Positions 23,199 through 29,010 of a stretch of DNA of 64,000 bases are shown piece by piece. The notes beneath the pieces were generated by a model, which was given only the letters and a program-made list of their open reading frames with translations, searched no databases and was not told where the DNA came from. The stretch is from NCBI GenBank assembly GCA_009922595.1, contig RFVC01000008.1, forward strand, positions 1 through 64,000. The letters are read 5' to 3'. Numbering within the stretch: the stretch's first letter is position 1; every line of letters begins with the position of its first letter. Source of the DNA: Gammaproteobacteria bacterium. Lineage in GTDB: Bacteria; Pseudomonadota; Gammaproteobacteria; Pseudomonadales; Pseudohongiellaceae. The position numbers and the translations under genes were made by a program.

Positions 23199-24455
23199 TT
23201 ACTCATAGCGCAGTGCTTTGGCAGGATCAACGAGAGCAGCCGATCTCGCCGGAAGGAGGGTTGCAATCATAGTCAGCAGCAGTGAAACACAGCACACCAG
23301 GAAAACATCAGCGAACTGGATCTGTGAGGGCAGGTAATTGACCGGATATATATCGGCGCTGAGAAATTCGATACCCGAAATTTTTTCCAGCCAGGTGACT
23401 ATGTCACTTACTATTAAAGCAAAAAACAAGCCCAGGAACAGCCCTGCCCCGGTGCCCATGATGCCAATGGAAAAACCCTGTACGAGAAAGATGTTGCGGA
23501 TATTCTCCAGGGATGCCCCCATTGCTCTGAGAATAGCAATATCTCCCTGCTTTTCCTTCACGATCATGACCAGGCTAACCACCACATTAAATGTTGCCAC
23601 TGCAATGAGTAGTGAGAGCAACAACCCAACAAGGGTTTTGGACAGTCTGATATTTTCATAGATATTGCCGTAATCCCAGGTCCAGTTTGAAATCTGGAAA
23701 TTATCACTGACATTTGAGCGTATATCCTGGGAAATTGCATTTACACCAAAAAGATCATCAACCTGCAATCGCAGTCCGTGTATGGCATCGCCAAGCCTGT
23801 ATACTCGCTGCACGTCAGCCATATGTGCAACAGCCAGACTACTGTCTAATTGAGACCCCACTCTGAAAATGCCTCCCACAGTAAACTGCTTCTGCCTAAT
23901 GAACTCGCCGAGTGGAGTAATTGGTACGATCGTTGATACTAGGGTAAGTTTGTCGCCTACAGTCACTTCAAGCAAATCGGCCAGTGCGTCGCCGATTAAA
24001 ATACTGTAAGACCTGTCCTCGAGGTTCTGGTATTCCCCATCTATCAGGAAATCATCAATACTAGAGATATCGCGTTCCGGCTCCGGATCGATGCCGTTTA
24101 GTACTATTCCCTTACTATTACCGTTAGCGAGTAGCATTCCCTGTACCTGCAGGTACGGAGCGCTTCCCGTCACTCCACTAATACTTTGAACACCAGTCTG
24201 GATCTCCGCCCAGGTATTCCGGTCAAGCAAAAAGTCTGAACGGGAAGACTGCATGGTGATATGCGGAACAATGCCGAGCACCCGTTCCCGTAGTTCCCGG
24301 TCAAAACCGTTCATCACTGAAAGAACAGTAATCAATATGGCGACGCCGAGACTGAGGCCGACTACAGATAAGAGAGAAATAAGACCCGTCAGCAAGTGTC
24401 TCGAACGCGCTGAGGCAAGACGTTTACCAATATATAAAGCCAGCGGCGTCTGCAT
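23199..24455 (-). CDS. lolE: Lipoprotein-releasing ABC transporter permease LolE (LolC/E family)
   Basis: This inner-membrane permease of the LolCDE complex extracts outer-membrane lipoproteins and hands them to LolA. From ATG 24455 it has 418 residues: one N-terminal helix (about 25-50, LISLLSVVGLSLGVAILITV), a large periplasmic domain, and three helices after about residue 270. The FtsX/MacB-type ending PARSAALVDPAKALRYE is present. The start lies directly after the lolD stop, and the longer frame from 24542 overlaps lolD without similarity. I call it LolE by its position after lolD; assignment between the two permeases is by order only. Confidence 0.88.
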   Translation of the reverse strand: MQTPLALYIGKRLASARSRHLLTGLISLLSVVGLSLGVAILITVLSVMNGFDRELRERVLGIVPHITMQSSRSDFLLDRNTWAEIQTGVQSISGVTGSAPYLQVQGMLLANGNSKGIVLNGIDPEPERDISSIDDFLIDGEYQNLEDRSYSILIGDALADLLEVTVGDKLTLVSTIVPITPLGEFIRQKQFTVGGIFRVGSQLDSSLAVAHMADVQRVYRLGDAIHGLRLQVDDLFGVNAISQDIRSNVSDNFQISNWTWDYGNIYENIRLSKTLVGLLLSLLIAVATFNVVVSLVMIVKEKQGDIAILRAMGASLENIRNIFLVQGFSIGIMGTGAGLFLGLFFALIVSDIVTWLEKISGIEFLSADIYPVNYLPSQIQFADVFLVCCVSLLLTMIATLLPARSAALVDPAKALRYE

Positions 24456-24456
24456 A

Positions 24457-25140
24457 CTATCTCCCTTCCTCAAGCACACCGTCAACAAGGTGATAAGCCC
24501 TGTCCATCTGGTCGGCAAAGTTCGGGTCGTGTGTGACAACAATAAAACATGTCGTTATTCGCGTCTTTAGTCTCTGCATCAGTTTTTGAATACCCCTGGC
24601 TGTTGTTCCGTCAAGATTACCTGTCGGTTCATCCATCAGAACACAGGCAGGATCATTGACAAGGGCTCGAGCAATCGCCACGCGCTGTCGTTCACCACCA
24701 GACAACTGGGCCGGCTTATGCCGCAGTCTTTCGCCAAGTCCCACCTCGTTCAGGGTAGCTTGTGCGCGCGTTATAGCTTCATCGTATGGGCGCTTGGCAA
24801 TAATGAGCGGCATAGCTGTATTTTCCAGTGCAGTAAATTCTCCTAGCAGATGATGAAATTGGTAAACAAAGCCAAGTGTCTGGTTGCGCAACTTATCCTG
24901 CTCTTTACCTGTTAGTGCAGATAATGCCTGCCCGAGAATTTGAACACTGCCTGAACTTGGCTTATCAATTCCGCCCAGTAAATTGAGTAGCGTAGTTTTG
25001 CCTGACCCTGATGTACCGGTGATCGCAATACTCTCACCCGCATTAACCGTCAGGTTTACATCACGGAGCACTTCAAGCACATTGTTCCCTTCACTGTATG
25101 AACGTGCAAGGTTTTTACAGACAAGGACAGCGCTACTCAT
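24457..25140 (-). CDS. lolD: Lipoprotein-releasing ABC transporter ATPase LolD
   Basis: LolD supplies ATP hydrolysis for lipoprotein release by LolC and LolE. The 227-residue protein has Walker [11 protein letters not shown] (41-50), signature LSGGERQR (146-153), Walker [12 protein letters not shown] (167-177) and a switch histidine in VVTHD. The [17 protein letters not shown] segment after Walker A is typical of LolD. It overlaps the lolC stop by eight bases and is followed at once by lolE. Confidence 0.95.
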
Positions 25141-26380
25141 AACGTAACACCTCAGCGGGCAGAATTCGTGACGCCTTCACTGCCGGATACAGCGTGGCCA
25201 GGAAACTTATCACAAGCGCCATTATGCAGGTAATAACCACATCAGTACCCTTTAAAACTGCAGGCAATGCACTGATTACGTATAAATTTGCCGGCGCCAG
25301 GAACGTTTCAAGGAAAGCCGAGATAGCGGAAAAATTGTCTGCGATTAAAACGCCAACAAGGGCGCCCACAGTCGTTCCGATGATCCCAACTAAGGTTCCC
25401 TGAATGACAAATATGGCAAGAATAGCTTTCTCCCCAGCCCCCATGGTCCTTAGGATAGCAATGTCAGCTTTTTTCTCTGAAACCATCATGACTAGTGTAG
25501 AAATAATATTAAATGCTCCTATAGTCACGATCATCATGAGCATGAACCAGGTCAGCACTTTTTCCATTTTCAGTGCATTGAACAAGCTGGCTTCAGTAAA
25601 ACTCCAGTCCTGTCCCGAAAAGGGCTGCCCGGCAAATTCCGACTGCAGCAAAGCAACGCCTTCATTCACAACTTGTCCTGCAATGTCCGGATCACTGACC
25701 CTTAAGCGTAATTTGATAGCTGCACCAGGATCTTGATTGTTCGAGAGCCTATAACTGTCCTCAAGGTGAACGAGGGCCAAGTCAGAGCCAATAGTGAACT
25801 GGGGATCAAAAATGCCGGCTACTGTGAACCTGAACATATTCAGGGACAGTTTGCCAGACCCTGTGACAGAAGGAACCAGTAAATTCACCGGATCACCTGT
25901 ATTAAGGCGCAAGTTCACCGCGATAGTGCGGCCGAGAATAATGTTATTGCTGCCTGGCGCTAGGTCCTGGAGGCGCCCCTGGATCATGTTCTCGGCAATC
26001 GTTGATACTGAATCTTCTGACGTAGGATCAATTGCTTTAATTTCAGCCACCTGATGATAGTCTTGTTGGCTCAGCATTGCCTCAACTGCGATAAAAGGGG
26101 CAACGCCAATAATCTCAGGATGGGAAATGAGTAAATCAGCAGCCTGCTGCCAGTTATTAAAGCCGCTGTCAGACTGAATCTGGCCATGGGAAACCGTGAT
26201 TAGTGTGCGATCACGCATTATTCCCTGCGAACCATTGAATACAGACAACACTACAACAATTGCCAGCACTCCAAGAGTCAGCCCTGCCATGGAGATCAGT
26301 GAGGTAAAGGAAATATAGCGATTATCTTTCTTCGCCAGGATATAGCGCAGTCCAATAAAGAAAGGCAGTGTTTTGAACAT
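25133..26380 (-). CDS. lolC: Lipoprotein-releasing ABC transporter permease LolC (LolC/E family)
   Basis: This is the first gene of lolC-lolD-lolE. The 415-residue permease has the N-terminal [19 protein letters not shown] signature of LolC/E, a helix at about 25-48, a periplasmic domain, and three C-terminal helices. It ends with [17 protein letters not shown]. The complex releases mature lipoproteins from the inner membrane. The start ATG 26380 follows a 104-base gap, upstream of which lies a serine recombinase gene on the same strand, so some lol transcription could arrive from there. Confidence 0.9.
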
Positions 26381-26484: not shown

Positions 26485-27186
26485 CTAGGGGCTGCTCTGC
26501 CTAGAACTCAGTTCGGTTTCATGACGCTTGATTAGTCGCTGCACAGTTTTGAAACTGACTGGCATCATGGGTGTGCTGACTTCAGCCGAGATAGCACGAA
26601 GAGACTTGCCCAGCTTTTTCATTTCCAGGATCTTTTTCAATACGCGCTGTTCCATGGGGTTTTCGATCAGGCGTCCATTGGAATGGATCATGTAGCCAAA
26701 TGGTCGGCTGCCACCAAGAAAACGTCCTTTCTTGCGCTGGCTTTGCTTCACTGTCTTGATGCGTTCAGTAGAACGCCGTTTTTCAAGACTGTGAAACACC
26801 TTCAGTACATCATTAAATTGAGGAGTCATGTCAGCGTCGGTGACATCCCCATCAAGATCTACGACGATCAGTTTCACATTGCGTTTTTTCAGCTCCTGAA
26901 GCGTATTCACCATATCATCACAGTTGCTGAAAATACGCTCTAACGTGCAAACCAGGAGAATGTCACCAGTTTCAAGACGCTTAAGCAATTCCCTTCCCTG
27001 CGGCCTCTTGGCCAGACTTACATTCCATCTCTGATTTTCGTCAATAAAACGTTCATTGACCTTCATGCCCTCACCGAGAGCATAGGTTTGGAGGCGAAGG
27101 TCTTCCTTTTCGAGAATGGTTTCAAGTTCTTGTAACGATTCCAGGCATTCAATCTGAGATGTGCGGGTATAGCTGTAAACCGACAT
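26485..27186 (-). CDS. Serine recombinase (resolvase/invertase family), catalytic Arg replaced
   Basis: The 233-residue protein has an N-terminal resolvase-type catalytic domain (about 3-145) and a helix-turn-helix-containing C-terminal part (about 150-225, with SLRAISAEVS). Arg8 and Ser10 (YTRTS) match the catalytic Arg-x-Ser, and RP at 61-62 and Arg84 (LERIF) are kept. The second arginine of the usual D-R-x-x-R motif is Ser87. That residue contacts the scissile phosphate in characterised resolvases, so activity is doubtful or altered. It stands alone between nuoN and lolC with no transposon features. GGAG lies seven bases before the ATG, right after a perfect dyad. Confidence 0.85.
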   Translation of the reverse strand: MSVYSYTRTSQIECLESLQELETILEKEDLRLQTYALGEGMKVNERFIDENQRWNVSLAKRPQGRELLKRLETGDILLVCTLERIFSNCDDMVNTLQELKKRNVKLIVVDLDGDVTDADMTPQFNDVLKVFHSLEKRRSTERIKTVKQSQRKKGRFLGGSRPFGYMIHSNGRLIENPMEQRVLKKILEMKKLGKSLRAISAEVSTPMMPVSFKTVQRLIKRHETELSSRQSSP

Positions 27187-27237: not shown

Positions 27238-27377
27238 TGTTATTGGTCACTACTACTTTAGCGTGTGGTTATTGTTTTTCTTAATTCCGGAAATATTAGA
27301 TGTGTCTCTGTACGCACAAATAACCAACCGGGGGACGGATTTTAATCACTATGGATTTGTGAATGCAAGCAATCGAT

Positions 27378-27402
27378 AGAAAAAACACTGTTTTCAGTGA
27401 TT
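27378..27402 (-). terminator. Candidate intrinsic terminator downstream of the nuo operon
   Basis: On the minus strand CACTG-AAAA-CAGTG is followed by six T residues. The stem has only five strong pairs but is flanked by A and T runs that extend it with one mismatch. It lies about 150 bases past the nuoN stop and before the recombinase promoter region, so it would separate the two transcripts. Confidence 0.45.
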
Positions 27403-27546: not shown

Positions 27547-29010
27547 TTAAAATGCCGAAGCAAGGTTTTGCAGGGTACTGATCATCGGTGTTGGATAAAC
27601 ACCGAGGTAGATGATGGCGGCTGTCATGGCGAGCATTACAGCATGTACGCCGACCGGCATTGCCGCCGCTGCCCTGTCTTCGCCACTGATATCGGCATTC
27701 TGCAGCATGGTGAAGATCAGGCGCAGGTAATAATAGAGACCAATAGCGCTACCGATGATAAGCATGGTGAGCAGGAACCACAGTTCTCCTTCTACGCCTG
27801 TAGAGAAAATATAAAACTTGCCAATAAAGCCGGCCGTGAGTGGAATCCCAGCAAGTGACAGAAGTACCGTGATAAGAACCGCTGACAGCGACGTGTTGCG
27901 CCAGAACAGACCCCTGAAATCTGCCAGGGTATCGAGTTCGATAGTGCTGTCAGAGATAGCACTGATTACGGCAAATCCGGCCAGCGACATCACAAAATAA
28001 GTCAGCATATAAAAACTTGTTGATTCGACTGATAGTGAATTGCTTACCGAGGCAGCGGCAATGATCACCACGAGAAGATACCCGAGATGAGCGATGGATG
28101 AATAAGCAAACAGGCGTTTAACGTTGGTCTGCAGGACCGCGAGCAGGTTGCCCAGTATCATCGAGGCAGCCGCCATGAACGTCAGCACAGCAAGCACAGC
28201 ATTAAATTCAAGCGCATTGGAAGCCAGAATTAGGCGCAGCGTCACAGCAAGCATAGCCGCTTTTGAAACAGTGGCCAGGTAAGCCGTAACGGGTACTGGC
28301 GCACCTTCGTATACATCCGGAGTCCAGATATGTAATGGCACTAGCGATAACTTGAATGCCGCACCGGCAACAATCATTAGTACGCCCATAATAAACATCG
28401 GTCCGGGGCCGCCTACTGCTTCGAGAGCAGACGGAATCTCATCAAAGCCGAGTGTGCCGATATAGGCATAGAGCAAGGCAATACCAAACAATGTAATGCC
28501 AGAGGCCAGCGCGGAGAGAATGAGGTACTTTATGCCAGCTTCCAGAGGAAACTTGGATGCCTTGGCATCATGCACTGTATAAGCAATCATGGCATAGAGA
28601 CTCACCCCGAGCATTTCCATGCCGATCAGCATGGACACAAAGTGGCTGCTGCAGGCCAATACCACTGCACCTAGCGTTGCGGTCATCAGCAGGATATAAA
28701 ATTCCTCATTCGGTGATTCGTGCGTCTTAAAATACGGGTACGCCAACAAGGCCACTCCTATTGCCCCCACGATAATCAGATTTGAGAAGAACAGGCTGTA
28801 TTCATCGATCAGCAGCAGTTGTGTCGCCTCGAAAGGCAAGACAGGCTCGATTAGAACGAAAGTCATTAGCGAGGCAAACAGACCAAAAACCGTCAGCCCG
28901 CAGACAATCGCATGGTTGCGTTTGAATGCAGCAGTCACCATCACCACAACCGCACTGGCTGTGAGCATGATAATCTGCATCAAATCAATTATGAGATTGT
29001 TATATTGCAT
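27547..29010 (-). CDS. nuoN: NADH-quinone oxidoreductase subunit N
   Basis: NuoN is one of the three antiporter-like proton-pumping subunits in the membrane arm of complex I. The 487-residue protein has about 14 hydrophobic segments. The conserved lysine region is visible as AGAAFKLSLVPLHIWTPDVYEGAP, followed by VKRLFAYSSIAHLGYLL. It is the last gene of the nuo operon, 45 bases after nuoM, and stem-loops follow its stop codon. Confidence 0.96.
   Translation of the reverse strand: MQYNNLIIDLMQIIMLTASAVVVMVTAAFKRNHAIVCGLTVFGLFASLMTFVLIEPVLPFEATQLLLIDEYSLFFSNLIIVGAIGVALLAYPYFKTHESPNEEFYILLMTATLGAVVLACSSHFVSMLIGMEMLGVSLYAMIAYTVHDAKASKFPLEAGIKYLILSALASGITLFGIALLYAYIGTLGFDEIPSALEAVGGPGPMFIMGVLMIVAGAAFKLSLVPLHIWTPDVYEGAPVPVTAYLATVSKAAMLAVTLRLILASNALEFNAVLAVLTFMAAASMILGNLLAVLQTNVKRLFAYSSIAHLGYLLVVIIAAASVSNSLSVESTSFYMLTYFVMSLAGFAVISAISDSTIELDTLADFRGLFWRNTSLSAVLITVLLSLAGIPLTAGFIGKFYIFSTGVEGELWFLLTMLIIGSAIGLYYYLRLIFTMLQNADISGEDRAAAAMPVGVHAVMLAMTAAIIYLGVYPTPMISTLQNLASAF

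Follow-up and report, generated by a model that had tools for sequence, protein, structure and literature searches.

A serine recombinase-like protein lacking its second catalytic arginine, conserved upstream of lolCDE in Pseudohongiellaceae, is a predicted autorepressor

There are serine resolvases which act as repressors of their own promoters and still recombine, and a dimer-type site lying over the transcription start of the binder's own gene is a common arrangement for an autorepressor. In Tn3, the resolvase TnpR is reported to act from res on its own promoters and to control both tnpR and tnpA (PMC7157771). Mobile-element enzymes which have turned into repressors are already known: the TldR proteins are described as TnpB-like nuclease-dead repressors, still targeted to DNA after the loss of catalysis and now associated with new genes (PMC13418256). 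In the open-licence literature, judging by titles and the openings of abstracts, we recognised no paper describing a catalysis-dead serine recombinase as a regulator of this kind, or one which is linked to lolCDE.

Here we describe a serine-recombinase-like protein without the second catalytic arginine, hereafter X, which is encoded at 26485..27186 on the minus strand of the window (the whole stretch of 64,000 nucleotides which was analysed, from contig RFVC01000008.1 of a member of the Pseudohongiellaceae); all window features given below lie on the same strand. X is 233 amino acids long and its frame is intact, starting with ATG and translating without a stop or frameshift. The Pfam Resolvase profile (PF00239) matched X at 61.8 bits (cut-off 23.3), this was the sole PF00239 match in its own genome, and X aligned with the chains of Tn3 and gamma-delta resolvase. 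The AlphaFold model has a recombinase fold (mean pLDDT 81, pTM 0.60, weak at residues 121–180), matching Tn3 resolvase by Foldseek (E 9.6e-9) and serine recombinases by VIA-align (Z 13–15); the catalytic-domain profile and the fold thus both place X in the serine recombinase superfamily. Residues 1–150 (26737..27186) comprise the former catalytic domain and the long helix E, on the evidence of VIA-align and of the AlphaFold model, in which confidence is low from residue 121; the helix itself spans residues 124–152 in the model and is followed by C-terminal helices at 177–191, 196–203 and 212–231. Residues 151–217 (26536..26736), on the evidence of column conservation and the model helices, contain an arm with the pattern GR-LGGS-PFGY and a helix-turn-helix. 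Among 102 sequences, 35 of the 67 columns in this second part were at least 95% identical vs 16 of the 150 columns in the first. No known sensor domain was found in X using Pfam.

We compared X to recombinases from outside the family, which were matched in 740 plasmid records and 16 phage records. From these, 16 stretches (15 plasmid, 1 phage) were taken, chosen by closeness to X or to the Methylobacterium bullatum recombinase (L242). Eleven distinct stretches, together with a relative with an intact active site from a family assembly (L155), gave the 12 outside relatives used in alignments; L250 and L253 served only for the repeat test described below, and L255 and L256 carry the Gluconobacter gene (L243) again. 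The best plasmid matches were to M. bullatum (36% identity over 95% of X) and Gluconobacter (33% over 94%). The recombinases of both have R8, S10 and D-R-x-x-R all intact, and the neighbours of the Gluconobacter gene are plasmid and IS genes. The L155 relative (L155:3845-4534, from G110:C60) lies beside two frames which we take to be a RepA-like ATPase and a helix-turn-helix protein, and its contig is perhaps a plasmid or mis-binned.

In the place of the D-R-x-x-R motif, X has E83-R84-I85-F86-S87 (codons at 26926..26940, from the translation, column counts and outside relatives): Glu83 stands for Asp, R84 is kept and Ser87 stands for the second Arg. An earlier note, made on the sequence of this DNA, had reported the retention of R8, S10 and R84 and the substitution at Ser87, all of which the translation confirms; Glu83 had gone unnoticed. 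We counted residues over 106 orthologues, leaving out L155 and the remnant in genome G155. The second Arg (Arg71 position) was found in none of them (S in 94, G in 6, N in 4 and T in 2), and neither was Asp (Asp67 position: E in 95, Q in 7, R in 2, L in 1 and V in 1). R61 was kept in all 106, R84 in 105, R8 in 98 (A in 5, C in 3; the R8 counted for G014 is doubtful, as the N-terminal region there has no profile match) and S10 in 95 (T in 9, G in 1, R in 1). All 12 outside relatives kept the second Arg; Asp was kept in nine and replaced by Ser in three, and therefore the loss of Asp alone is a weak criterion. Since contacts to the scissile phosphate are made by R8 and R68 and have been proposed for R71 (PMC4499144), the absence of the second Arg from every orthologue makes it likely that X has lost its chemistry. 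That S10 and R8 are so often retained suggests, as judged from these counts, that the active site is not completely free to change. The possibility that S87 arose from an alignment shift was ruled out, as it aligns in the second-Arg column with no gap nearby in the alignments with the 12 outside relatives.

Two orthologues stand apart. The most diverged (G103, L153:1416-2099) is changed at the R8, S10, Asp67, R68 and Arg71 positions and keeps R61; lolC still lies downstream of it. In G014 (L051:6322-7008, minus strand, with coordinates on the reverse complement) the first ~70 residues of X have no profile match and the DNA-binding part is preserved.

A profile built from 28 orthologues was used to determine the distribution of X over 137 genomes of its family, a group of mostly uncultured gammaproteobacteria. 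Matches were found in 109 genomes; after the removal of G007 and G065, which contain only ordinary recombinases, and of G155, which contains a remnant, 106 of the 137 genomes had an orthologue of X. One of these belongs to a named member of the family, Pseudohongiella sp. O18. Outside the family, weak matches were found in 3 genomes of the order (293 genomes, E up to 1e-10) and 3 genomes of the class (369 genomes, E up to 1e-12), with E values from 7e-11 to 5e-17 and frames of 204–568 amino acids. In a tree of 103 orthologues and 7 outgroups, X formed one clade (support 100/99), within which the eight groups need seven changes, the minimum; g4 is split in two, with six g4 rows joining g3, and the long branches (G014, G103 and most outgroups) are unsure. 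We read this as a single acquisition followed by vertical descent within the family.

X is under purifying selection, which is strongest on its DNA-binding part. The median dN/dS was 0.113 over 105 pairs with dS of 0.15–1.2 (pairs which share ancestry and so are not independent), and by region it was 0.126 for residues 1–150 vs 0.048 for residues 151–217; dS is saturated within the window's own genus. The constraint which the earlier note proposed looking for is therefore present, and decay into a pseudogene, which it named as an alternative, was ruled out by the open frame and low dN/dS. The only decayed copy was seen in G155 (L156:5257-5580), where a degenerate C-terminal part alone remains upstream of lolC. 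X is absent from 30 family genomes, some of them complete, and is therefore dispensable. Intact X is lacking from 31 genomes; lolC was present in all 14 of these which we looked at, and apart from the G155 remnant the sequence upstream of lolC, read for up to 1500 bp, gave no trace of X in the other 13.

X lies between nuoN and a lolCDE cluster. Downstream by 104 bp is lolC (25133..26380; NCBIfam lolCE TIGR02212, 363 bits, cut-off 362.45), which was named by position because this family does not separate LolC from LolE. It is followed by lolD (24457..25140), for which the best NCBIfam match was LolD at 293.8 bits, below the cut-off of 307.75, and which is supported by synteny, and by lolE (23199..24542; NCBIfam lolCE, 426.4 bits, and synteny), the true start of which is probably internal, as the profile match begins at residue 30–33 of the listed reading frame. 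Upstream is nuoN (27547..29010; TIGR01770, 360.1 bits, cut-off 332.6), and between nuoN and the X promoter there is a weak terminator-like hairpin (27386..27399; 2 such sites in the region vs 1.1 expected). In every one of the 103 loci where X is intact and the contig continues, lolC was the next gene downstream on the same strand (3 further loci end at a contig edge), with lolD and lolE coming next wherever the contig was long enough. X and lolC overlapped or were separated by no more than 6 bp in 24 of these loci, and in 93 the gap did not exceed 150 bp. In contrast to lolC, the upstream neighbour varies: nuoN is found there in three genera only (g1, g2 and g8), and in 14 of the 22 representatives with listed upstream frames there is a divergent rne-like gene, which we take from its sequence to be rne. 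A link between X and nuo was therefore rejected; the regulatory role which had been suggested for either side of X is supported on the lol side only.

It should be noted that in the five genomes of g2 the gap between X and lolC, as computed, is 462–918 bp. Three of these gaps were read and contain opposite-strand reading frames, of ~155 amino acids in two of the three, which makes a separate promoter for lolC probable in this genus. The ~155-residue frames (L027 and L029) are alike between G013 and G023, and in G023 lolC apparently begins inside the computed gap. No second operator was found near lolC in g2. Both X and its candidate operator persist in this genus though lolC is separated, so X does not need a nearby lolC in order to be kept.

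Upstream of X we identified an operator-like site of 28 bp (27300..27327) by phylogenetic footprinting, a matrix and a held-out test. In the alignment of upstream regions from g1, g2 and g8, an almost invariant CAGAGACACA lies 3' of a conserved promoter, and in other genera CAGAGACACA forms the right-hand arm of GTGGCTTTG-N6-CAAAGACAC, so that in most genera the site is a 9-6-9 inverted repeat. In the window's genus the half nearer X (CAGAGACACA) is strongly conserved and the other half is weak, with only 4–5 of 9 arm pairs complementary. The mean pairing of the arms is 6.9 of 9 positions across 69 genomes, and 4.7, 1.6 and 3.5 of 9 in g1, g2 and g8, where one arm varies and the other is fixed. 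Conservation is lowest in the six bases between the arms (0.56 mean identity vs 0.82 and 0.88 for the arms). The putative promoter consists of a -10 element TAAAAT (27339..27344), conserved in the genus and across genera and 11 bp upstream of the site, and a -35 element TTGCAT (27363..27368), conserved as CTTGCAT in the genus alignment and 18 bp before the -10. A consensus scan for the X promoter found none (1.7 expected), and so the promoter is called from conservation alone. Other repeats at 26.0–27.7 kb around X were short and imperfect.

Using a 28-position matrix, 88 of 105 upstream regions scored above 7.6, which was the maximum of 525 shuffled regions. With the addition of G117, which had been left out of the 105, and G138, where the site is 715 bp upstream, the site is present in 90 of 106 genomes; a further 4 have a weak site only and 12 have no clear site, including all four X-bearing genomes in the genus of Pseudohongiella and one genome which offers only 153 bp of upstream sequence. 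As this matrix was trained on the same sites, a second matrix was built without g1, g2 and g8. Its best hit in 400 bp was at the expected position in all 20 genomes from these genera, with a score beyond the maximum of the genome's own shuffles in only 7 of the 20. The spacing from the -10 to the site was 8 bp in 43 of 88 regions and 5–11 bp in 83, each -10 box having been taken as the top match within 30 bp with no comparison to shuffled sequence; the distance from the end of the site to the ATG ranged from 2 bp (G026) to 687 bp (G138). When both strands were scored, using one assembly per species, all 90 sites had the same orientation to X. An invertase switch would be expected to show the site or promoter in both orientations, which was not seen in these 90 genomes. 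In G094 (L129) there is a second good site (score 23.8) 31 bp before X, besides the usual one.

The site is unique in its own genome, where a search allowing 3 mismatches over 20 bases gave no other copy (307 contigs; more diverged copies would escape), and in the 64-kb window the next best score was 6.8 vs 24.7 at the X site. An exact short pattern gave 73 matches in the 137 genomes, of which, by hand count, 48 were at X and 25 elsewhere vs 26 for a reversed control; there is therefore no excess of the pattern elsewhere in the family. This pattern is strict, covering 48 of the 106 X genes, and so diverged sites elsewhere would escape it. Within the fetched loci, nine positions outside the main sites scored above 9: four belonged to the G138 and G117 sites, one was the extra site of G094, one was on the contig of L155 (13.6) and the remaining three were weak (9.4–10.2). 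Upstream of lolC in the 13 X-less genomes and G155, only G069 scored above the shuffled maximum, and only just (8.1), the other 13 scoring at most 2.8; in G155 there is a degenerate operator-like sequence near the X remnant (2.8). The X-less genomes G069 (L181) and G066 (L179), both from the genus of Pseudohongiella, share an operator-like sequence upstream of lolC (scores 8.1 and 1.2), which is possibly a remnant of the site.

We also looked for inverted repeats upstream of the recombinase gene in 14 relatives, and found an excess of those with a total length of 26 and 10-bp arms. Repeats of this length with at least 8 of 10 pairs were found in 7 loci (mean 3.3 and maximum 8 in 60 shuffles), and the sum-of-squares measure was reached in none of the 60 shuffles; it should be noted that several neighbouring repeat lengths were also in excess. 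The half-sites of the relatives have little in common beyond TGT, in three of them. Descent of the operator from a recombination subsite of res is suggested by these repeats, and only suggested.

Taking together the loss of the residues at the Asp67 and Arg71 positions, vertical descent, purifying selection, the adjacency of lolC and a conserved site tied to the promoter, we propose that X is a former resolvase which now represses the promoter of its own gene, predicted to be in the same operon as lolCDE in most genera, and give this a probability of roughly 65%. A resolvase of plasmid or phage type would have entered the family ancestor once, upstream of lolCDE, and would then have lost its strand-cleavage residues while being retained for its sequence-specific binding of DNA. 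X, as a dimer, would sit on the operator, which overlaps the predicted transcription start of the X promoter, and would hinder RNA polymerase there and so hold its own transcription at a set level; the output of lolCDE would be set likewise where these genes are co-transcribed with X. We infer binding by X and self-limiting transcription from the autorepressor layout of the site and the precedent of Tn3 resolvase. X has the traits of a domesticated mobile-element protein, namely lost catalytic residues, a conserved DNA-binding part, vertical inheritance and a fixed association with a host gene, and the earlier note's idea of a domesticated, DNA-binding and cleavage-poor protein is well supported by these comparisons.

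The fixed place of X before lolC could have a less adaptive origin, in which an inserted promoter became needed by lolCDE and autorepression does no more than keep that promoter tolerable. X and lolC overlapping or nearly touching in 24 loci, the lack of a known Pfam sensor domain and the continuation of lolC in the 13 X-less genomes tested would all fit such a neutral lock-in. However, X is retained in g2 where lolC is separated, and selection on the DNA-binding part is strong, so that we consider a purely neutral origin doubtful; it is in any case compatible with autorepression by X and is not exclusive of it. Somewhat less probable again, and in our view unlikely, is that the palindromic site is bound by some other regulator and X is kept for a nucleoid, envelope or protein–protein role. 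The link between X and the site is indirect, 12 X-bearing genomes have no clear site and X persists in g2 despite its separation from lolC. Against this, the site was not clear upstream of lolC in the 13 X-less genomes tested (G069 being marginal), it is degenerate together with X in G155 and its pattern is not in excess elsewhere; moreover, the 9-6-9 geometry suits a resolvase dimer, and 26-bp repeats are found upstream of the gene in some relatives, in modest excess.

A further rival reading is that X is still an active recombinase with another active-site solution (Glu for Asp, no Arg71), as the earlier note had allowed, and acts at its site, for example as an inversion switch or on incoming DNA. 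Against the retention of S10, R8, R61 and R84 in most orthologues, with the Thr which replaces S10 in nine genomes leaving a possible nucleophile, must be set the Ala or Cys at R8 in eight genomes, the Arg or Gly at S10 in two and the changes at all five positions examined in G103, R61 excepted. The site is also single in its own genome at up to 3 mismatches and so has no close partner there, its orientation never varies and its central six bases are its least conserved part. These further losses in sublineages and the missing second site leave an active X very unlikely, even with S10 and R8 kept in ~90% of genomes. The most improbable of the alternatives is that the element works at the RNA level, as a hairpin in the 5' leader, instead of as a DNA operator. 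Its position inside the predicted transcript and the pairable arms in most genera would allow this; yet the arm changes in g1, g2 and g8 are uncompensated while the other arm is fixed, the spacing is nearly fixed to the -10 and variable to the ATG, and the site had no Rfam match at gathering score.

If X is indeed an autorepressor, its family looks like an end point at which the repressor alone is left, fixed before a core operon of envelope biogenesis, with many species and some natural losses available for comparison. It would give a protein–operator pair for studying the passage from recombinase to transcription factor, and a lead on possible tuning of lipoprotein export in the X-bearing family. 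It also serves as a warning that genes annotated as "recombinase family protein" can be regulators.

X shares with the small serine resolvases (Tn3/gamma-delta TnpR and Sin, PF00239) the same fold, the long helix E and the C-terminal helix-turn-helix, and has in common with them a dimer-type inverted repeat upstream of its own gene. It differs in lacking the residues at the Asp67 and Arg71 positions, in having no second site found in its own genome and in being chromosomal, vertically inherited and tied to lolC. Its best plasmid matches, from M. bullatum and Gluconobacter, have an intact active site, unlike X. The D protein of mini-F, which is described as a repressor and resolvase (cited in PMC7157771), shares the double role; it is a plasmid protein reported to resolve, whereas X is chromosomal and without the catalytic Arg. 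The likeness to TldR, as far as that system is described in PMC13418256, lies in a mobile-element enzyme without catalysis, with DNA targeting kept and a new gene linkage; however, TldR is RNA-guided and belongs to another enzyme family, while X would read its site directly. On a wider reading, for which we hold the chances to be even, the family turned a resolvase and one ancestral subsite into a one-operator autorepressor which sets LolCDE expression, and X would be the serine-recombinase counterpart of the nuclease-dead TnpB repressors.
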